Made by a program: the position numbers and the translations under genes. Under the pieces are notes generated by a model that worked only from the letters and a program-made list of their open reading frames with translations, made no database searches and was not told the DNA's origin. This document shows positions 40,441 to 50,178 of a stretch of DNA of 50,178 nucleotides, piece by piece. Source of the stretch: Bacteroidales bacterium (GTDB lineage Bacteria; Bacteroidota; Bacteroidia; Bacteroidales; UBA932); the NCBI GenBank assembly GCA_017627955.1, contig JAGAFU010000003.1, forward strand, positions 1-50,178, written 5' to 3'. How positions within the stretch are numbered: position 1 is the stretch's first letter; the number at the start of each line of letters is the position of its first letter.

Positions 40441-42354
40441 ATGCCATACAGTTTATTCGAACTCACTCAGATGAGCAGAGAGCAGCTTGAAAGCGTAGCT
40501 CAGGAACACCAGATAAAAAACGCGAGAAAAATGACGGACGAGAACCTGTCTTTCGCGATTCTCGACGCCCAGGCGACAGCGGCCTCGCTTCAGCCTCTTG
40601 ACAGGCCTAAAGCCAAGCGGGGACGCCCTAAGAAAACAGAGGCGGCTCCCAAGAAGGAAACCGCTCCGGAGCAGCGAAAAGCTGAACCCCAGGCGCAAGA
40701 GGCGAAGAGCGCGGCCCCTGAGGAGACAAGGCAGGAGCAGAAGCCGAAGGCCAAACGCGGCCGGAAGCCAAAGTCCGCCTCCCAGCCGGTTCAGGCTGAG
40801 ACCGCCACACCCGCTGCCGTTGCTGAGGAACCGGCAAGGGAAAAGGGACCCGAGGCCCCCTCGCAGGAGAAGCCGGTGTCCAAAAGAGGTCGCAAGCCCA
40901 AGAATGCCGTCAAGCCCGCTGAGGCTCCCGCAGCTCCCAAGGCAGATGCCGAGGTTCGGACTGAGGCTGTCCCCGAGCCGGTCCAATCCCCCGATCCGGC
41001 ACCTAAACAAGTGGACGGAAAGGAATTCATCCACCAACTCTTCGATGAATTGAAAGATGATCCCGCTGCCCAGGCCGACAGGGACAATTACCAGGGAAAG
41101 AAGAAAAACAAGTTCCAGGGAAAACAGAATGGCCAGCCCAACCAGAACGGCCAGAATCCCCAGAATCAGCCGAAGCAGAAAGCACCGGCCATCGAGTTCG
41201 AAGGTACCGTGGAGGCCACTGGAGTTCTGGAAATAATGCCGGACGGCTACGGTTTCCTCCGTTCTTCCGACTACAATTACCTTAACTCCCCCGATGACAT
41301 CTATGTCAGCCAGAACCAGATAAAGAGTAATGCCCTCAAGTCGGGCGACACGGTTACCGGCGAGATCCGTCCTCCAAAGGAAGGTGACAAATATTTCCCT
41401 CTTGTGAGGATCAAGTACATCAACGGTCGCACTCCGGATTATATCCGTGACCGAGTGCCGTTTGATTTCCTGACTCCCCTTTTCCCGAACGAGAAATTCA
41501 ATCTTCTCGGTCACGGGCACCAGAACGATGTTTCCTGCCGTATCGTGGACATGTTCACTCCGATCGGTAAGGGGCAGCGAGGCCTGATCGTCTCCCAGCC
41601 CAAGACTGGTAAAACGATGCTGCTCAAGTCTATAGCCAACGCCATAGCTGACAACCATCCGGAGGTCTACGAGATTGTTCTCCTCATCGACGAGCGTCCC
41701 GAGGAGGTCACCGACATGAGTCGCAGCGTCAAGGCCGAGGTCGTCGCCTCGACTTTCGACGAGCCTGCTGAGAGGCATGTCAAAGTGGCGAATATGGTCC
41801 TTGAGAAAGCCCGTCGTCTCGTCGAGTGCGGTCATGACGTCGTCATCCTGCTTGACTCGATCACAAGGCTCGCCAGGGCTTACAACACCGTGCAGCCCGC
41901 TTCAGGTAAGGTACTTACCGGTGGTGTTGACGCCAATGCCCTGCAGAAGCCGAAGAGGTTCTTCGGTGCCGCTCGTAACATCGAGGGCGGCGGATCACTG
42001 ACAATTCTCGCCACGGCCTTGACTGAGACCGGATCCAAGATGGATGACGTGATTTTCGAGGAATTCAAGGGAACCGGCAATATGGAGCTCCAGCTGGACA
42101 GGACACTCGCCAACAGGAGAATATTCCCGGCGGTCAATGTCGTTCTCTCAAGCACCAGACGTGACGACCTTCTCTACAGCAGGGATGTCGCCAACAGGAT
42201 CTGGATTCTCCGGAAACTCTTGGCCGACATGAATCCCACCGAGGCGATGAACTTCATGCTCCAGTTGATGGACGAGTACAAGACCAACGAGATGTTGCTT
42301 GACAACATGAATAAGGTCTCGCCCAGGGACGCCAAATTCTACGACTCCTATTAG
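40441..42354 (+). CDS. rho: Transcription termination factor Rho with a long disordered insertion
   Basis: Rho is the hexameric RNA helicase that ends transcription at Rho-dependent sites. The N-terminal Rho_N helix bundle is at about residues 1-45. Residues about 50-250 form a low-complexity insertion rich in Pro, Ala, Lys, Glu and Gln. It has three basic AT-hook-like motifs, RGRPKK (60-65), RGRKPK (106-111) and RGRKPK (149-154), and a Gln/Asn-rich end. The RNA-binding cold-shock-like domain follows ([18 protein letters not shown]), then the ATPase with Walker A SQPKTGKT near 384, [14 protein letters not shown] and the R-loop region. At 637 residues it is longer than the E. coli protein (419) because of the insertion. 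A similar insertion in Bacteroides thetaiotaomicron Rho has been reported to drive phase separation. Confidence 0.97.
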
Positions 42355-42356
42355 TC

Positions 42357-43319
42357 ATGAGGGAAAGAGACGTGTTAACTTACTTCAGGCCTCCCAAAAG
42401 GGGCCTGAAAGCGTTGTTAAAGACTGCCTCTCGCAATTTGTACTACTCCTGGGTTGTCAAACATGACAAACCGGAAAGGAACGAGAAAAGGAAGTACCAT
42501 GTCTCACTTTGCGTCATGTTCAAAGATGAGGCACCGTATCTCCGGGAATGGTTGGAGTACCACATGCTGGTTGGCGTGGACCATTTTTATCTGTACGACA
42601 ATAACTCTTCTGACGGATTTGAGAGCATCATCAGCAGTTACCAGAAAGAAGGCTTAGTCACGCTTGTGCGTTGGCCGCATGAGCATTCCCAGGTCAAGGG
42701 ATACGAGGATTGTATCAAGCGTTTCCAAGGAGAGAGCGACTGGATAGGCTTCATCGATGTGGACGAGTTCCTTGTGCCGGTGGCGGAGGAGTCACTCGTC
42801 ACTTTCCTGGACCGTTTTTCCAGGCGGCCCGCGGTCCTGGTTTACTGGAGGTATTTCGGATCGGGAGGCATGCTCACAAGGGATACGAGTCGCCTGGTGA
42901 CAGAAGACTTCGTCATCGCTTCTGAGAAGATGTTCACAAAGGGAAAATGCTTCTTCAATTCCAACTACGATTATCTGTTCGACCCCGCGAGGAACAGATC
43001 CATGTTTCACTACCTCTGGACTGTTTCAGGTGGCAAGGCAGTTACGCCAGTCGATGTTTTCGACCACACGACATATAGGGATTGGTATCCGAACAGGAGG
43101 GTGAAGGAAATCCCGGTTCAGATCAACCACTATACCGTCAAATCATTGGCCGAGTACCGGGAAAAGAATAAGAAGGGGGATGTTTATTATGACCATCCTA
43201 CCCACGGGGACAAAGTGTTCCACGACCGGGATAATAAATGCCATGTACCTGATTATCACATATTCAGGTACATGGACAAATTGAAACTCAAGTTGGCTGA
43301 GCGGGAAGCGAAGGATTAA
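42357..43319 (+). CDS. GT2/GT92-like glycosyltransferase
   Basis: This is a soluble GT-A-fold glycosyltransferase of the GT92/Glyco_tranf_2_4 type. The N-terminal half has VSLCVMFKDEAPYLREWLEYHMLVGVDHFYLYDNNSSDG, the family signature. The metal/nucleotide-sugar site is DVDEF (Asp134 and Asp136). No transmembrane segment is evident. The donor sugar and acceptor are unknown; a lipopolysaccharide core or surface glycan is plausible given lptD two genes upstream. It begins 2 bp after the rho stop, so it is cotranscribed with rho, which looks incidental. Its 3' end overlaps carB by 4 bp and carries the likely carB terminator. Confidence 0.85.
   Translation: MRERDVLTYFRPPKRGLKALLKTASRNLYYSWVVKHDKPERNEKRKYHVSLCVMFKDEAPYLREWLEYHMLVGVDHFYLYDNNSSDGFESIISSYQKEGLVTLVRWPHEHSQVKGYEDCIKRFQGESDWIGFIDVDEFLVPVAEESLVTFLDRFSRRPAVLVYWRYFGSGGMLTRDTSRLVTEDFVIASEKMFTKGKCFFNSNYDYLFDPARNRSMFHYLWTVSGGKAVTPVDVFDHTTYRDWYPNRRVKEIPVQINHYTVKSLAEYREKNKKGDVYYDHPTHGDKVFHDRDNKCHVPDYHIFRYMDKLKLKLAEREAKD
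43229..43275 (-). terminator. Possible terminator of carAB, inside the glycosyltransferase gene
   Basis: On the minus strand, 40 nt past the carB stop, a perfect 12-bp stem (arms 43241-43252 and 43264-43275, 11-nt loop) is followed by an AT-rich tail, CATTTATTAT. It lies inside the last 30 codons of the convergent glycosyltransferase gene. Confidence 0.5.
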
Positions 43320-46300
43320 TACTGATCCCAGGATTTAATCTGGATGTCGTCGATCGAAGTCCCGCAGAATGAGCGGATGAAGGCGGTGGCCAGACGGGCG
43401 TTGGTGAAGAGCGGCACGTTGAAATCGATGGCCGCCCTTCTTATTTTGTAGCCATTGGAAAGCTCCAGCTCGCTGAAGTCTTTAGGAATATTGATCACCA
43501 TGTCAATCTCCTTGTTCTGAATCATTTCCACGGCCGGCTTGAAGCGCCCCTTGAAGTTTGGATTGTCGCATTCGCTCGGCCAGAGAACCTTTGTGGAAGG
43601 GACACTGTTCTCTACCAGGTACTTGTAGGTACCAGCGGTGGCGAAGAGCTCGTAACCTTTGTCGACCAGAAGCTTGCAAGCCCCGAGCATGTCCGCTTTC
43701 TGAAGAGGGTCACCGGTCGAGAGCAAGATGCGTTTCGCCGGAATCCTTTGGCCGACGGACAAGAGAGACTTCAATATCGCCTCATTGAGATCATCCCCGA
43801 GGCAACCAACCTCGCCGGTGGAGCTCATGTCGACACCAAGCATGGGATCAGCCTCTTCCAGACGGGCGAAACTGAACTGGGAGGATTTGACTCCAACGTA
43901 ATCCAAGTCGAACGCGCTCTTCTGCGGCGCGGCAGGATGGAGCCCCAGCATGACCTTGGTGGCAAGCTCGATGAAGTCGATCTTCAAGACCTTGGAGACA
44001 AAGGGGAAGCTCCTGGAAGCCCGCAAGTTACACTCAATGACCTTAATGGCGTTCTCCTTGGCCAGGAACTGGATGTTGAAGGGGCCTGATATTCTCAAAG
44101 CATTCGCTATCGCCCTGGCGATCTTCTTGATACGGCGGACGGTCTCGACATAGAGTTTCTGGGGCGGGAACTGGATGGTGGCGTCACCGGAATGGACTCC
44201 GGCATATTCAATATGCTCCGAGATGGCGTAGGCGATGATCTCTCCCCCGTCGGCGACGGCATCGAACTCGATCTCCTTGGCCCTCTGGTAGAACTTGCTT
44301 ATGACCACGGGATGTTCCTGGGAGACCTCGGAGGCGAGGGAAAGGAAGTGCCTTAGTTTCTTCTCGTCATGGCAGACATTCATGGCGGCCCCGGAAAGGA
44401 CGTACGAAGGCCTCACCAGGACAGGGAAACCGACAGTCCTGATGAACTCCTCGACATCATCCATCGTCGTAAGTTCTTTCCATTCAGGCTGGTCCACGCC
44501 CAGGGCGTCAACGATGCTGGAGAACTTATGACGGTCCTCGGCCTTGTCGATGTCTGTGGCGCTGGTGCCTAATATAGGAACATTATGCTCGTGCAACCTC
44601 AAGGCAAGATTGTTGGGAATCTGTCCGCCCACCGAAACGACAACCCCGTGAGGCGACTCAAGCTCGATGATGTCCATGACTCGCTCATAGGTCAACTCGT
44701 CGAAATACAGGCGGTCACATTCGTCATAGTCTGTCGAGACAGTCTCCGGATTGTAGTTGATAAGGACACCCCTGTAGCCTTGCCCCTGTATGGTCTTGAG
44801 GCAGGTCACGGAGCACCAGTCAAACTCCACGGATGATCCGATGCGGTACGCCCCGGATCCCAGGACAATGACTGATTTGCCGTCATTCTCATATTCAATG
44901 TCGCTCTTGGTGCCATTGTAGGTCAGGTACAAGTAGTTGGTCATCGCTGGGAACTCGGCGGCCAATGTGTCTATCTGCTTGACCACCGGGACAATACCGA
45001 GCGATTTGCGATATTCGCGGACCTTGTCCATGTTGACGTTGGGGCTCCCCTTGTCCTTCCAGACGGCTCTCTGGATCTGGAAATCAGAGAAGCCTTCTTT
45101 CTTGGCGAGGTGAAGAAGCTCAGCCGGGACATCCTCGATCGCATCGTAGCCATGCATCTCCTCATACGTCCGGACTATGTTCTCGAGCTTATTGAGGAAC
45201 CACTTGTCGATTTTGGTGAGCTCGTGGATCTGATCCACAGTCCAACCTGCTCGCATCGCCTTGGAGATCACGAATATACGATTATCCGTAGGCTCCCTCA
45301 AAGCGGTCTCGATGTCGGCCACCTGGAGCTCCTTGTTGCCCACGAAACCGTGGGCCCCCTGGCCTATCATCCTCAGGCCCTTCTGGATGGCTTCCTCGAA
45401 GCTTCGTCCTATCGCCATGACCTCGCCGACGGATTTCATGGAGGAACCGATCTTGCGGGAGACACCGTGGAACTTGCTGAGGTCCCAACGAGGGATCTTG
45501 CAGACGATGTAGTCAAGCGCCGGTTCGAAAAATGCCGGAGTAGTCTTTGTGACGGAGTTTTTCAGGTCGAACAGGCCATAGCCGAGTCCAAGTTTGGCGG
45601 CGACGAATGCCAGCGGGTAGCCGGTGGCTTTGGACGCCAACGCCGATGAACGGCTCAATCTGGCGTTGACCTCGATCACGCGGTAATCCATGGCGTCGGG
45701 GTCGTATGCGAACTGGACGTTGCACTCACCCACTATGCCTATGTGACGCACTATTCTTATCGAAAGTTCCCGGAGGAAGTAATAGTCGTTGTTTGATAGT
45801 GTTTGCGAAGGGGCGACCACAATACTCTCACCTGTGTGGATGCCGAGCGGGTCGAAGTTTTCCATGTTACAGACCGTGACGCAGTTGTCGTAGCGGTCGC
45901 GAACCACCTCATATTCAATCTCTTTCCACCCCTTCAGGGATTTTTCGACCAGGACCTGCGGAGAGAAGGAGAAAGCTTTCTCGCATATTTCCTCAAGCTG
46001 CTCCTCGTTGTCGCAGAATCCGGACCCGAGCCCTCCGAGGGCGTAAGCGGCCCTGATGATGAGTGGGAAACCAAGCTCAGCGGCAGCCTTCTTGGCCTCC
46101 TTGATGCTGGCCGCTGGATGGGATTTGATGGTCTTTACTCCGATCTCGTCAAGCTTCTTGATGAAAAGGTCACGGTCCTCGGTGTCCATGATGGCCTGAA
46201 CAGGCGTTCCGAGCACGTTGACCCCATATTTCTCAAGCGTACCTTTCTCGTATAGCTCCACGCCGCAATTGAGGGCTGTCTGGCCTCCGAAAGAGAGCAG

Positions 46301-46555
46301 GATGCCCTGGGGACGCTCCTTGGCTATCACCTTTTCCACAAAAAAGGGAGTTACAGGGAGGAAATATATCTTGTCCGCGACTCCTTCGGAAGTCTGGACA
46401 GTGGCGATGTTCGGATTGATCAGGACTGTCTCTATCCCCTCTTCCCTCAAGGCCTTAAGGGCCTGTGAGCCGGAATAATCGAACTCTCCGGCCTGTCCTA
46501 TCTTGAGGGCGCCGGAACCGAGGATCAGAACTTTCTTTATGTCTGTGTTTCTCAT
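43316..46555 (-). CDS. carB: Carbamoyl-phosphate synthase large subunit
   Basis: CarB makes carbamoyl phosphate from bicarbonate, ammonia (from CarA) and two ATP, feeding pyrimidine and arginine synthesis. The 1079-residue protein has the two homologous ATP-grasp halves. The first begins KKVLILGSGALKIGQAGEFDYSG, with EVNARLSRSSALASKATGYPLA. The second begins KSVIVLGSGAYRIGSSVEFDWCSV, with ECNLRASRSFPFVSKVL. The C-terminal MGS-like allosteric domain has KRILLSTGDP, LFATAGTYKYL and MVINIPKD. No catalytic loss was seen. It overlaps the carA stop by 4 bp, so the subunits are translationally coupled. Confidence 0.97.
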   Translation of the reverse strand: MRNTDIKKVLILGSGALKIGQAGEFDYSGSQALKALREEGIETVLINPNIATVQTSEGVADKIYFLPVTPFFVEKVIAKERPQGILLSFGGQTALNCGVELYEKGTLEKYGVNVLGTPVQAIMDTEDRDLFIKKLDEIGVKTIKSHPAASIKEAKKAAAELGFPLIIRAAYALGGLGSGFCDNEEQLEEICEKAFSFSPQVLVEKSLKGWKEIEYEVVRDRYDNCVTVCNMENFDPLGIHTGESIVVAPSQTLSNNDYYFLRELSIRIVRHIGIVGECNVQFAYDPDAMDYRVIEVNARLSRSSALASKATGYPLAFVAAKLGLGYGLFDLKNSVTKTTPAFFEPALDYIVCKIPRWDLSKFHGVSRKIGSSMKSVGEVMAIGRSFEEAIQKGLRMIGQGAHGFVGNKELQVADIETALREPTDNRIFVISKAMRAGWTVDQIHELTKIDKWFLNKLENIVRTYEEMHGYDAIEDVPAELLHLAKKEGFSDFQIQRAVWKDKGSPNVNMDKVREYRKSLGIVPVVKQIDTLAAEFPAMTNYLYLTYNGTKSDIEYENDGKSVIVLGSGAYRIGSSVEFDWCSVTCLKTIQGQGYRGVLINYNPETVSTDYDECDRLYFDELTYERVMDIIELESPHGVVVSVGGQIPNNLALRLHEHNVPILGTSATDIDKAEDRHKFSSIVDALGVDQPEWKELTTMDDVEEFIRTVGFPVLVRPSYVLSGAAMNVCHDEKKLRHFLSLASEVSQEHPVVISKFYQRAKEIEFDAVADGGEIIAYAISEHIEYAGVHSGDATIQFPPQKLYVETVRRIKKIARAIANALRISGPFNIQFLAKENAIKVIECNLRASRSFPFVSKVLKIDFIELATKVMLGLHPAAPQKSAFDLDYVGVKSSQFSFARLEEADPMLGVDMSSTGEVGCLGDDLNEAILKSLLSVGQRIPAKRILLSTGDPLQKADMLGACKLLVDKGYELFATAGTYKYLVENSVPSTKVLWPSECDNPNFKGRFKPAVEMIQNKEIDMVINIPKDFSELELSNGYKIRRAAIDFNVPLFTNARLATAFIRSFCGTSIDDIQIKSWDQY

Positions 46556-47628
46556 AACTTACCGATGAATTCGTCAAAGAGGAAATTGGTGTCTGTAGGG
46601 CCGCTGGAGGCCTCAGGATGGAATTGAACGGAACAGAAAGGCTTGCTCTTGTGGCGGATGCCTTCGTTGGTGCCGTCGTTCATATTCACGAACCAGGGCT
46701 CCCAGTCTTTTCCGAGAGTCTTGTCGTCGACGGCGAAACCGTGGTTCTGGGATGTGATGAAGCAGCGGTTAGTGCCGACCATCCGGACCGGCTGGTTGTG
46801 GCTGCGGTGACCGTATTTAAGCTTGTAGGTGTTGGCTCCGCCGGCCCTCGCGAGCAACTGGTTGCCCATGCATATTCCGAAAATTGGTTTGTCTCCTTCC
46901 ATGGCCTTGCGGAGGTTTGCGACGGTAATGTTGCAGAACTGTGGATTGCCCGGGCCGTTTGAGATGAAGAGGCCATCGTAGTCGAGGGTGTTGAAATCAA
47001 AGTCCCAGGGGACCCTGATGACCTTCACTCCCCTGTCCATGAAGCAACGGAGGATGTTGTGCTTGACGCCGCAATCAACCATGACGACGGTTTTGTCTCC
47101 CGTTCCGTAAGTGATTGGTTCTTTGCAGCTCACAAGAGCGATCTGGTTGACCAGGTTTGGATCGTCCACCGGGAAATCCTTGGTGACCCCGTCAGGGACG
47201 ATCATGCCGAGCATCGAGCCTCTCTCCCTTAAAGTTTGTGTCACCGCACGAGTGTCTATTCCGAATATTCCCGGAATCCGGTGCTCCTTCAACCATTCGT
47301 CGAGGCTCTTGACAGCGTCCCAGTGGCTGTAGTCAAAGGAATAGTCGCTGATGACCAATCCCCTGACCCAGATTATCTCCGACTCGAAGTTGCGGGAGAT
47401 CCCGTTCTGGTCCGGACCCTCCATGGGAACGCCATAATTACCTATAAGAGGGTAACTTACGGTGAGGATCTGACCCGAATATGACGGGTCGGTAAGGCTC
47501 TCCGGATAGCCGACCATGGCGGTCGAGAAAACCACTTCGCCATCAGTCGGTCCCTCATGGCCGAATGAGAACCCGCGGAATTCCATTCCGTTCTCAAGAC
47601 GCAGTGTCGCTCCTTTTCTTTCTTTCAT
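46552..47628 (-). CDS. carA: Carbamoyl-phosphate synthase small subunit (glutamine amidotransferase)
   Basis: CarA hydrolyses glutamine and passes ammonia to CarB. The 358-residue protein has the N-terminal CPSase_sm_chain domain (GEVVFSTAMVGYPESLTDPSYSGQ) and the class I glutamine amidotransferase domain. GLFISNGPGNP forms the oxyanion region, Cys253 in FGICMGNQ is the nucleophile, and VQFHPEASSGPTD carries the His/Glu of the triad. In most CarA proteins the nucleophile motif reads GICLGHQ; the Asn in place of His is a conservative difference. It is first in the carAB operon and is preceded by a leader with a candidate attenuator. Confidence 0.96.
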   Translation of the reverse strand: MKERKGATLRLENGMEFRGFSFGHEGPTDGEVVFSTAMVGYPESLTDPSYSGQILTVSYPLIGNYGVPMEGPDQNGISRNFESEIIWVRGLVISDYSFDYSHWDAVKSLDEWLKEHRIPGIFGIDTRAVTQTLRERGSMLGMIVPDGVTKDFPVDDPNLVNQIALVSCKEPITYGTGDKTVVMVDCGVKHNILRCFMDRGVKVIRVPWDFDFNTLDYDGLFISNGPGNPQFCNITVANLRKAMEGDKPIFGICMGNQLLARAGGANTYKLKYGHRSHNQPVRMVGTNRCFITSQNHGFAVDDKTLGKDWEPWFVNMNDGTNEGIRHKSKPFCSVQFHPEASSGPTDTNFLFDEFIGKL

Positions 47629-47638
47629 GTTTTTCTAC

Positions 47639-47678
47639 AAAATAAAAACGACCATCTCAAATAATAATGAAATGGTCG
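47639..47678 (-). terminator. Candidate transcription attenuator in the carAB leader
   Basis: On the minus strand, immediately before carA, a 10-bp stem with one G-U pair (arms 47669-47678 and 47649-47658, 10-nt AT-rich loop) is followed by TTTTTATTTT. The divergent gene upstream (mnmE) needs no terminator here, so the element most likely controls entry into carAB. The T-rich run ends about 10 nt before the ATG. The leader ORF stop codon lies at the edge of the loop and stem, so a ribosome finishing it would cover the 5' arm. Regulation by pyrimidines or arginine is an inference. Confidence 0.65.
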
Positions 47679-47761
47679 GCGCGGCAAATTGAAAAGAGAA
47701 CAATCCGATCAGCACCTCTCGGCACCGCGACAATCAGTGGTGTTATTTCGGTCCTGGTCAT
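47657..47761 (-). CDS. Candidate 34-codon leader peptide of carAB
   Basis: This short ORF starts with ATG about 15 nt after the predicted transcription start of carA and ends with TGA inside the attenuator hairpin. The encoded peptide begins MTRTEITPLIVAV and ends ADHFIII. It contains four Arg (AGG, AGA, CGG, CGC) and seven Ile, including three consecutive ATT codons in the terminator loop. A U-rich stretch (minus strand about 47713-47690) precedes the hairpin and could pause RNA polymerase. Short ORFs arise by chance, so only its position relative to the promoter and terminator argues for it. Confidence 0.35.
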   Translation of the reverse strand: MTRTEITPLIVAVPRGADRIVLFSICRADHFIII

Positions 47762-47781
47762 TGGATGTTCGTTTATCTTGG

Positions 47782-47789
47782 CAAATTTA
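47782..47789 (-). promoter_or_regulatory. Candidate -7 element of the carAB promoter
   Basis: TAAATTTG on the minus strand matches TAnnTTTG. Transcription would start near 47775, giving a leader of about 147 nt, unusually long for this window. It lies in an imperfect inverted repeat, 47785-47809, that also overlaps the likely mnmE promoter region. Confidence 0.5.
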
Positions 47790-47801
47790 CTCATTTTTGA
47801 G

Positions 47802-47809
47802 TAATTTCG
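47802..47809 (+). promoter_or_regulatory. Weak candidate -7 element of mnmE
   Basis: TAATTTCG differs from TAnnTTTG at one position (the same TTCG ending occurs in the rho promoter). It lies 17 nt before the mnmE ATG at 47827 and shares an inverted repeat with the carAB element. Confidence 0.3.
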
Positions 47810-47826
47810 CACCATATTCTTTAATT

Positions 47827-49242
47827 ATGGTCAGAACCTTTTTTGATGACACAATAGCAGCTCCGGCGACTGTCCCCGGGACAGGAGCGATCACAGTGAT
47901 CCGAGTTAGTGGTCCGGAGGCTTTGCGAGTGGTCGGGAGTTGCTTGAAGTTGACGTCGAAATCGATCGAGTCTCTTCCCGGGTACTCAATTTGTTACGGT
48001 ACTATTGGGGATGAGAACGGCGAGGTCGTCGACGAGGTTTTGGCCAGTGTGTTCAGGGCACCTCATTCCTACACCGGTGAGGATTCGGTTGAGATTTCCT
48101 GCCACGCTTCGTCTTATGTCGCTTCCGAGATTCTAAGACTCCTTTGCGGAGCCGGCGCGAGGATGGCTTCACCGGGTGAGTTTACCCGCCGGGCGTTTGT
48201 CAATGGCAAGATGGATCTTGCTCAGGCTGAGGCTGTGGCGGATGTTATCTCATCATCTTCTTCAGCTTCTTTGCGAGTGGCTATGAACCAGTTGCGAGGT
48301 GGTTATTCTTCTGAGCTTCGATCGATTCGTTCAAGACTCGTTGAACTAACCTCGCTGCTCGAACTTGAATTGGATTTCTCCGAGGAAGATGTCGAGTTCG
48401 CCGACCGTTCCCGGCTATCCTCCTTGCTTGACGAAGTCATTGGTCATGTTTCCTCATTGGCTTCTTCGTTCCGCCTTGGAAACGCTCTTCGGAACGGAGT
48501 GCCGATCGCCATTGTCGGGGCTCCGAATTCCGGGAAGAGCACCCTTCTTAATTCCCTGCTCGGGGATGATCGCGCGATTGTCTCCGATGTCCCCGGGACG
48601 ACAAGGGACACCGTCGAGGAGACGTTGGTTGTCGATGGGATTTTATTCCGGTTCATCGACACGGCCGGGCTTCGTTCTTCGTCTGATGAGGTCGAGAGAA
48701 TTGGAATTGAGAGGTCGTATAAGAAGCTTTCGGAGGCTTCGGTCGTGCTCGCGCTGCTTGATTGCACTGCTCCTGAGGAGGAAAATGAGACTTTGATTTC
48801 TGATATAGTGTCTCGTGTTGACTTTTCTATTCAAAAGTTGGTCGTGTTGCTGAATAAAGTTGACATTTTTGGCGCTAACATAAATGTTATACTATTAAAC
48901 AATGAAGTTTCATTTTCTGATTCTTCGGTTGTTAAGTTATATATTTCAGCAAAAACAGGATTTGGGTTGGATTCTTTGAAAAAGGAGCTTGTATCGTCGC
49001 AAAAGGACCTTTCTTCGGATTTTGATAACGTTGTTGTGACGAATGCTAGACACTTCGAGGCCCTTAATTCGGCCGCTTCAGCTCTCCGGAAAGTGAAAGA
49101 TTCCCTGTCTTCCGGACTCACTCCTGACCTTATTGCGGAGGATCTCCGGGAAGCCCTCCACTACCTCGGCACCATCACCGGCGAAGTCACCCCGGACGAG
49201 GTTTTGGGCGAGATATTCGGGAGGTTTTGCATCGGGAAGTGA
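47827..49242 (+). CDS. mnmE: tRNA modification GTPase MnmE
   Basis: MnmE, with MnmG, installs the cmnm5 group on the wobble uridine of certain tRNAs. The 471-residue protein has the N-terminal formyl-THF-binding domain (TVPGTGAITVIRVSGP, PHSYTGEDSVEISCH), a helical domain and an inserted GTPase domain. The GTPase has G1 GAPNSGKS (231-238), the G2 region VPGTTRDTVEE, G3 DTAGLR, and G4 NKVD. The chain ends with the invariant FCIGK. I start at ATG 47827 (MVRTFFDDTIAAPATVPG), matching homologues; an in-frame extension to 47689 would run back into the carAB leader. A segment at about 48790-48990 is much more AT-rich than the rest of the gene. Confidence 0.97.
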   Translation: MVRTFFDDTIAAPATVPGTGAITVIRVSGPEALRVVGSCLKLTSKSIESLPGYSICYGTIGDENGEVVDEVLASVFRAPHSYTGEDSVEISCHASSYVASEILRLLCGAGARMASPGEFTRRAFVNGKMDLAQAEAVADVISSSSSASLRVAMNQLRGGYSSELRSIRSRLVELTSLLELELDFSEEDVEFADRSRLSSLLDEVIGHVSSLASSFRLGNALRNGVPIAIVGAPNSGKSTLLNSLLGDDRAIVSDVPGTTRDTVEETLVVDGILFRFIDTAGLRSSSDEVERIGIERSYKKLSEASVVLALLDCTAPEEENETLISDIVSRVDFSIQKLVVLLNKVDIFGANINVILLNNEVSFSDSSVVKLYISAKTGFGLDSLKKELVSSQKDLSSDFDNVVVTNARHFEALNSAASALRKVKDSLSSGLTPDLIAEDLREALHYLGTITGEVTPDEVLGEIFGRFCIGK

Positions 49243-49377
49243 ACGAACTAGTCTAAATCTCGTCGAAAACTTAAAATTCCTTTTTCAAACTAGCTGAATC
49301 TTAATGGTTTACATTTTGGTTCGGCTAGTTTCGCTTTTGAGCAGTCGGGTTATCATTTAGCTTGATTTTGGCCTTTT

Positions 49378-49417
49378 TTGGCACACGATTTGGCACACGT
49401 GTGCCAGCGTGTGCCAA
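49378..49417. repeat. Nested TTGGCACAC palindrome cluster
   Basis: A perfect 16-bp palindrome TGGCACACGTGTGCCA (49391-49406) lies inside an outer inverted pair, TTGGCACAC (49378-49386) and GTGTGCCAA (49409-49417). The same unit, TTGGCACACGT, recurs at 49660-49670 just after the integrase promoter. Such spacing suits a dimeric DNA-binding protein, for example a recombination directionality factor, repressor or the integrase itself. Confidence 0.7.
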
Positions 49418-49613
49418 GAAAAACGTGTTTTTGGGCTAAAAAGTTACCAAACTGGGTCGGAGCAGAAATTTTTACGGAAAATTTACACGGATTTTTACGA
49501 GTTTTATTTAGGCTAGTTTCACGATTCGTTATCTGTTATTCTTTTTTTATAAGTCGCAATAAATCAAGATAATATAACTTGAGTTAAGTTTGATTTATAA
49601 ATGCGTAATTTAT

Positions 49614-49644
49614 TTTGGATGTTTACCGGAAATAGTTATATTTG
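49614..49644 (+). promoter_or_regulatory. Promoter of the integrase gene (-33 TTTG, N19, -7 TATATTTG)
   Basis: TTTG at 49614-49617 and TATATTTG at 49637-49644 have the ideal 19-bp spacing. Transcription would start near 49651. A TTGGCACACGT copy lies 10-20 nt downstream, where a repressor could act. Confidence 0.65.
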
Positions 49645-49732
49645 CGGTGGAAATGTCACTTGGCACACGTAGAAAGTTCAGTGCTTTCCAAAGAACATTT
49701 GTTTTACCTAATTTATTGAACCAGCATTCGTT

Positions 49733-50178
49733 ATGAGCAAAAAGAATGATGTACAGACTGAGCAACTGGTGAAGCTCAGGAAAAGGAAAGCGGCGAGTGG
49801 AAACACGATCCTCTTCCTTGACTATGTACAGTTCGATGAACGCGTGCGCGAGAGCATCGGACTTACCCTGAAGGATGGAAGGAATCCGGCCAACAAGGAA
49901 AAGAACCAACACATCATGGCCAAGGCAGAGGAAATCCGCCTGGCAAAGGAAAAGGAGCTCCTTGCAGGATCAGGATACCGGAGCAGGGAAAATCAGGGCA
50001 ACAAGACACTGTTCCTCCCCTATTACCGCACTATGATGGAGGACAGGAAGAACAGTGACGGAAACTATGGCAACTGGAAGAGCTGCCTCCGATACCTTGA
50101 GGTATACTGCTCCGAGAAGACCACCTTCGGTGACATCACCCCCCGCTGGGTCCAGGGATTCAAGACCTATCTGGAAAC
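49733..50178 (+). CDS. Tyrosine recombinase/site-specific integrase (5' part, cut by the window end)
   Basis: The gene opens with an ATG at 49733 and remains open to the window end, giving 148 residues. The start, MSKKNDVQTEQLVKLRKRKA, and the following charged region fit an N-terminal arm-binding domain. Residues about 100-145, with NWKSCLRYLEVYCSEKTTFGDITPRWVQGFKTYL, match the SAM-like core-binding domain of Bacteroidota phage/transposon integrases. The catalytic domain (R-H-x-x-R, Y) would lie outside the window. The upstream AT-rich DNA and palindromes suggest the left end of an integrative element or prophage inserted downstream of mnmE. An unusually placed housekeeping XerC/D is less likely, given the arm domain and context. 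Confidence 0.82.
   Translation, partial: MSKKNDVQTEQLVKLRKRKAASGNTILFLDYVQFDERVRESIGLTLKDGRNPANKEKNQHIMAKAEEIRLAKEKELLAGSGYRSRENQGNKTLFLPYYRTMMEDRKNSDGNYGNWKSCLRYLEVYCSEKTTFGDITPRWVQGFKTYLE

Follow-up and report, generated by a model that had tools for sequence, protein, structure and literature searches.

A probable translation-coupled transcription attenuator upstream of carAB in Bacteroidales

The leader of carAB in a Bacteroidales genome probably acts as a translation-coupled transcription attenuator, in which a short upstream open reading frame (uORF) runs into an intrinsic terminator before carA. The leader lies in a 50,178-nucleotide stretch of contig JAGAFU010000003.1 (assembly GCA_017627955.1), here called the window, from whose letters alone an original prediction had proposed such control of carAB. 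Comparison with relatives supports the proposal well, with a suitably placed uORF in 48 of 50 leaders and in all 15 leader clades. It also supports the placement of the uORF stop codon, the terminator, two further helices (P1 and P2) and the absence of an RNA antiterminator. We further think it likely, if somewhat less so, that the uORF is read by the ribosome without regard to its sequence, as in the E. coli pyrBI attenuator, and that UTP-dependent pausing takes part.

The leader separates carA from its -7 promoter box (Table 1), and the divergent gene next to carA encodes MnmE according to its family model. The -7 box, the 34-codon ORF, the terminator with its T tail and the 10 nt from the end of this tail to the carA ATG (47628) all lie where the original prediction had placed them. 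It had also put the uORF stop codon at the edge of the hairpin loop, and the TGA (47659-47657) indeed forms the first three bases of the hairpin 3' arm. The hairpin itself, described there as 10 bp, has 11 bp and an 8-nt loop, and the helix P1 over the ORF start and the hairpin P2 had been overlooked.

Table 1. Features of the carAB locus and its leader, in window positions.
Feature	Position	Strand	Basis
carA (carbamoyl-phosphate synthase small subunit; gene proposed to be controlled)	46552..47628	-	TIGR01368
carB (CPSase large subunit; overlaps carA)	43316..46555	-	TIGR01369
-7 promoter box TAAATTTG, Bacteroidales-type	47782..47789	-	sequence
carA leader transcript	47629..47778	-	predicted start a few nt past the -7 box
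Upstream ORF (uORF), 34 codons + TGA	47657..47761	-	sequence, relatives
P1 5' strand GAACATCC, immediately 5' of the uORF start codon	47763..47770	-	folds, alignment
P2 5' arm GTGCC	47721..47725	-	compensatory changes
P2 3' arm GGTGC (loop GAGA 47720-47717)	47712..47716	-	compensatory changes
P1 3' strand GGATTGTTC	47698..47706	-	folds, alignment
U-rich stretch 5' of the terminator; putative RNA polymerase pause region	47684..47697	-	U content
Terminator hairpin	47649..47678	-	terminator scan, alignment
Terminator T tail TTTTTATTTT	47639..47648	-	terminator scan

Statistics on the single sequence are weak or modest, so the case for an attenuator rests on conservation. The -7 box occurs 20 times in the window against 14.1 expected. 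A terminator scan of 42000-50178 returned 5 sites against 9.6 in shuffles, although the site in the carA leader has 11 pairs and the other four only 5-6. The window leader folds modestly better than its shuffles (z -1.86, 9 of 200 equally good), and without the terminator its fold scores z -0.28. No Rfam family matched anywhere in the window at the gathering score.

We searched 101 genomes of the genus for CarA and obtained a match in 67, some of these being weak or to another protein. The other 34, including 10 of the 48 genomes of good quality, gave no match and several seem to lack carA. Using the best 80 of 97 carA loci from public genomes, 93 deduplicated upstream sequences and 17 fetched by coordinates, less 1 duplicate, gave 109 distinct sequences from the genus and its nearest public relatives, of which 53 carry a leader-type terminator. 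Leaders were chosen by this terminator with a hand-made pattern devised after inspecting the upstream sequences; a strict terminator scanner had failed on L015, L016, L026 and L031. Leader clades are groups at 72% leader identity, and L008, L018 and L047 were left out of the uORF count (box not found, or locus cut). A further set from the family comprised 46 upstream sequences (4 of them repeats of earlier ones), and the terminator was found in 5 of the 6 from the genus and in 2 of the 40 from other genera (labelled g8 and g21). In this set a uORF ends at the stem in L212, L215 and L216 of a known clade and in L214, L243 and L252, while L217 has the terminator and no ATG-started uORF behind its box. 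Since the records are mostly metagenome assemblies, absences are weak evidence throughout.

As a uORF we counted any ORF, 5 codons or longer, whose stop falls between -16 and +25 nt of the stem start, a range set after the data had been seen. The 50 leaders scored were those with a recognisable promoter box, and in the two that fell outside the count (L053, L107) the ORF continues through the terminator. Dinucleotide shuffles would give a placed uORF in 4.8 of the 15 clades, and multiplying the chances of the individual clades gives 2.2e-9. The commonest stop position lies 1-15 nt 5' of the stem start in 13 of 15 clades, ORFs ending before -16 being left out; it is +15 in the clade L147-149 and at the loop edge in the window clade (+19/20 in 16 of 18 members). 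ORF frame, stop-in-loop position, terminator and -7 box are all kept across this 18-member clade, TANNTTTG standing as the -7 box in 18 of 18, with the exceptions of L015 and L016, where the first ORF continues through the terminator. A lack of conservation of the ORF or the hairpin in close relatives, which would have spoken against the original prediction, was thus not what we found.

It is unlikely, given this distribution, that the hairpin is an ordinary terminator or a 5' stabilising structure which a uORF meets by chance, although in four leaders (L008, L018, L258 and L217) a promoter and hairpin do occur and no ORF ends at the hairpin. In L008 and L018 the promoter and the terminator are retained and the ORF is absent. 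In these two and in L258 the hairpin begins within ~20 nt of the promoter box; they may be natural leader deletions, or the hairpin may be used differently in them.

Neither the length of the uORF (6-45 codons) nor its peptide is conserved. For the window clade (15 members) we obtained a pN/pS of 0.72 (0.70 before the terminator, 0.96 within it), so the frame is maintained and the peptide only loosely, and on this value we rejected peptide-specific arrest for the window-type uORF. Searches with the uORF peptides returned no match in PDB or NCBIfam and one in Pfam, below the cut-off. Since the pairing of uORF with terminator is kept and the peptide is not, carAB is probably on when the ribosome keeps up with the polymerase. 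RNA polymerase would transcribe the leader and reach the terminator 10 nt short of carA. A ribosome trailing closely on the ORF would enter the hairpin, which could then not form because the stop codon lies at the loop edge, and carAB would be transcribed. If the polymerase outran the ribosome, or if the ORF went untranslated, transcription would be expected to terminate after a leader of ~140 nt. When UTP is scarce, the P1/P2 hairpin and the U-rich stretch would most likely pause the polymerase and let the ribosome catch up, so that carAB would presumably rise at low pyrimidine. The model assumes ribosome-polymerase coupling in Bacteroidota, where translation initiates mostly without Shine-Dalgarno pairing. 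In E. coli, bringing a stop codon closer to a terminator, from 28 bp away to 5 bp, is reported to lower termination from ~90% to <10%, with maximal termination when the stop lies >27 nt away (PMC4824070), and the leader stop positions fall within this distance range (ORFs ending before -16 not counted).

To describe the RNA structure we aligned the 18 window-clade sequences, 17 of them distinct (alignment A1). P1, P2 and the terminator together are paired in 94.8% of cells against 34-49% in slid controls, and in 12 cells both partners have changed, a number reached by 0 of 500 shuffles. These double-sided changes fall in P1 and P2. Counted by pair instead, both partners vary in 4 pairs, a number that does not exceed the shuffles (231 of 500). 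The terminator stem, where the original prediction would have counted covarying bases as support, hardly varies. This stem (CCRTTYC ... RTGGTC; window 47649-47678 and relatives) is much more conserved than P1 or P2, though a hairpin alone would permit compensatory change. Taken alone, the window sequence pairs the P2 region differently in its minimum-energy fold. A pattern for the terminator core had 14 hits in the 101 genomes, all 14 before carA, against 1 hit for the reversed control pattern; it covers 14 of the 21 leader genomes, so variant terminators at other genes would escape it.

Most long leaders share P1 over the ORF start, the internal hairpin P2 and the U-rich stretch. In the window clade, U makes up on average 41% of the final 30 nt preceding the terminator and 19% of the earlier part. 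Nine of the ten long-leader clades have more U in these 30 nt (Wilcoxon p 0.002), clade L061 showing no enrichment and L038 little. The five short-leader clades have a uORF and terminator, no U-rich tract and no P1 visible in folds, so UTP pausing cannot be general. We also searched for an antiterminator by matching both terminator arms to the upstream RNA. Neither arm exceeded chance, and we rejected this type of pairing; the 5' arm pairs with upstream RNA even less well than chance (mean z +0.48). With no upstream partner for this arm, the ribosome is the likely antiterminator.

The 5' strand of P1, at or adjoining the uORF ATG, admits another reading, which we consider possible but doubtful. 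Here P1 would close the uORF start region as soon as its 3' strand has been transcribed, so that read-through would be set by ribosome loading before about +80 and the signal would be initiation rate or general elongation speed rather than UTP pausing. Over the ten long-leader clades P1 does beat shuffles (Fisher p 3e-4, clade mean z -1.35). However, P1 is not seen in short leaders and is non-significant in the window sequence (L001, p 0.62) or L031 alone, and the idea overlaps with UTP-dependent pausing in a way that sequence cannot separate. We offer just as tentatively the thought that the leader is a ligand-free timer of polymerase speed against ribosome loading, P1 shutting the uORF start behind the passing polymerase, with carAB set by nucleotide supply through this race alone; if true, tight transcription-translation coupling would itself be a regulatory input in Bacteroidota. 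That P1 and P2 form a metabolite-binding RNA appears extremely improbable. The two helices do covary, but there is no Rfam match and no antiterminator, the uORF and terminator are kept in leaders without P1/P2, and no conserved core could be seen by eye across clades.

Attenuation coupled to translation at the uORF leaves the choice of signal, for which the original prediction had named pyrimidine (UTP) level or stalling at arginine or isoleucine codons. Pyrimidine is plausible and favoured, among other grounds by the raised U content ahead of the terminator and by the pyrimidine attenuation of carAB reported in Pseudomonas; codon stalling found no support. In favour of stalling, 4 codons of the window uORF specify Arg and its last three Ile, carAB supplies arginine too, and four genomes (G093, G083, G028 and G010) lack a detected argF' and the leader together. 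Yet Arg codons are entirely missing from 6 of 15 clades, not one amino acid is shared by all 15 (isoleucine reaches 13), no antiterminator was found, and the leader is retained in G050 (96% complete), where neither argF' nor argG was found. We therefore regard sensing of arginine or isoleucine by codon stalling as very unlikely. In a hand-compiled table of 47 of the 67 genomes with a CarA match, argF' was separated from pyrB by score band and by its nearness to argG in the genome that holds the window. Leader and argF' occur together in 19, leader without argF' in 2 (G050 and G026), argF' without leader in 22 and neither in 4, so that the presence of the leader shows no association with that of argF' (p 0.68).

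None of the 21 genomes with the leader carried a second carA, whereas 6 of the 26 without it did (p 0.026, kinship not corrected for). All six second copies have a pyrB-band gene no more than ~7 kb away, and five of these six genomes have an argF'-band gene within ~4 kb of the window-type carA. The five second copies that we fetched had no leader; the second copy of G064 is broken up over two contigs. Thus the leader is absent where the window-type carA appears to be devoted to arginine, which favours pyrimidine as the likelier signal, and we put the chance that UTP is the main one at about even.

Reading by eye, we saw no such leader before pyrB (12 genomes), pyrE or pyrD (8 loci each, with a wrong start taken in L154 and L165) or argG (7 loci), the start of the pyrB-containing operon being read only in the genome that holds the window. 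This argues against a pyr regulon device, and we discarded the idea of a pyr or arg regulon element. PyrR-controlled pyr attenuators likewise act on pyrimidine genes and require PyrR. No PyrR was found in this genome (92.6% complete), the best score being 19.2 bits against a cut-off of 138 that 6 of 14 control genomes passed.

A different carAB leader was observed in 5 of 400 genus genomes (L277, L279, L280, L282 and L283; ~1470-1608, match orientation), using a pattern that itself required part of the core and that also gave 2 unrelated hits. Its uORF has the conserved core RDYL[ST]ALWCSSGHQ, with 3, 3 and 10 variable columns by codon position over 18 codons, and stops 29-33 nt before a terminator adjoining carA. 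This uORF is reminiscent of the arginine attenuator peptide encoded ahead of fungal CPA1. In G071, G073, G027, G036 and G081 a single open frame of 1463-1504 codons contains carA; its length, our only criterion, suggests a fusion to carB. The second leader type is found in G036 and G081. The window leader shares with fungal CPA1/arg-2 a uORF before a CPSase small-subunit gene (PMC11550727), but the fungal uORF stalls at high arginine through a conserved peptide, and the window type has no peptide conserved across clades.

The E. coli pyrBI leader combines a hairpin and a U-rich tract with UTP-dependent pausing. As there (pyrL), a pyrimidine gene is preceded here by an intrinsic terminator that the uORF reaches or enters, without an amino-acid-specific codon run or antiterminator hairpin, and the ribosome is proposed as antiterminator. 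A hairpin with U-rich tract is found in the long leaders for the most part, the window clade included, but not in the five short-leader clades. Unlike pyrBI, the genes are carAB, the phylum is Bacteroidota, a helix lies over the uORF start and some relatives have uORFs of 6-16 codons without a U-rich tract. The leader also lacks the conserved regulatory codon run and alternative hairpins of trp/his-type leader-peptide attenuators. Coupling of transcription and translation at pyrBI is stated in PMC4824070 and PMC5021804. For P. aeruginosa carAB, PMC4997734 reports a single promoter, a leader peptide, a stem-loop needed for a pyrimidine response termed attenuation, and regulation of that promoter by arginine via ArgR; its authors found no uORF in P. 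syringae. Compared by description, P. aeruginosa has the same genes and a leader ORF with stem-loop between promoter and carA, but it belongs to the Gammaproteobacteria and has ArgR at the same promoter. The carA motif of Polynucleobacter (SRC-12-1; 30 examples, beta-proteobacteria), a riboswitch candidate, also lies directly 5' of carA but is an extended imperfect hairpin with no uORF described in the available text (PMC8632094). A carA leader peptide with pyrimidine attenuation had thus already been reported in P. aeruginosa; for Bacteroidota, where the original prediction knew of no carA attenuator, a literature search covering few subscription papers found none. Among the texts available, the main text of a premature-terminator survey has no 'bacteroid-' word and its sole 'cara' is an author's name (PMC2965389), and carA is absent from PMC6429828 as far as that text extends.

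carAB stands at the branch point of pyrimidine and arginine synthesis, and we found no description of its regulation in Bacteroidales. If the P1 helix does nothing, the carA leader is simply another attenuator like those of pyrBI and Pseudomonas carAB, in a distant phylum. An attenuator kept over 15 clades would imply that in Bacteroidota the ribosome follows the polymerase closely enough for such control; the Pseudomonas leader peptide would then suggest that one solution serves this gene in two distant phyla, and transcription-translation coupling in this phylum becomes testable through the carA leader.
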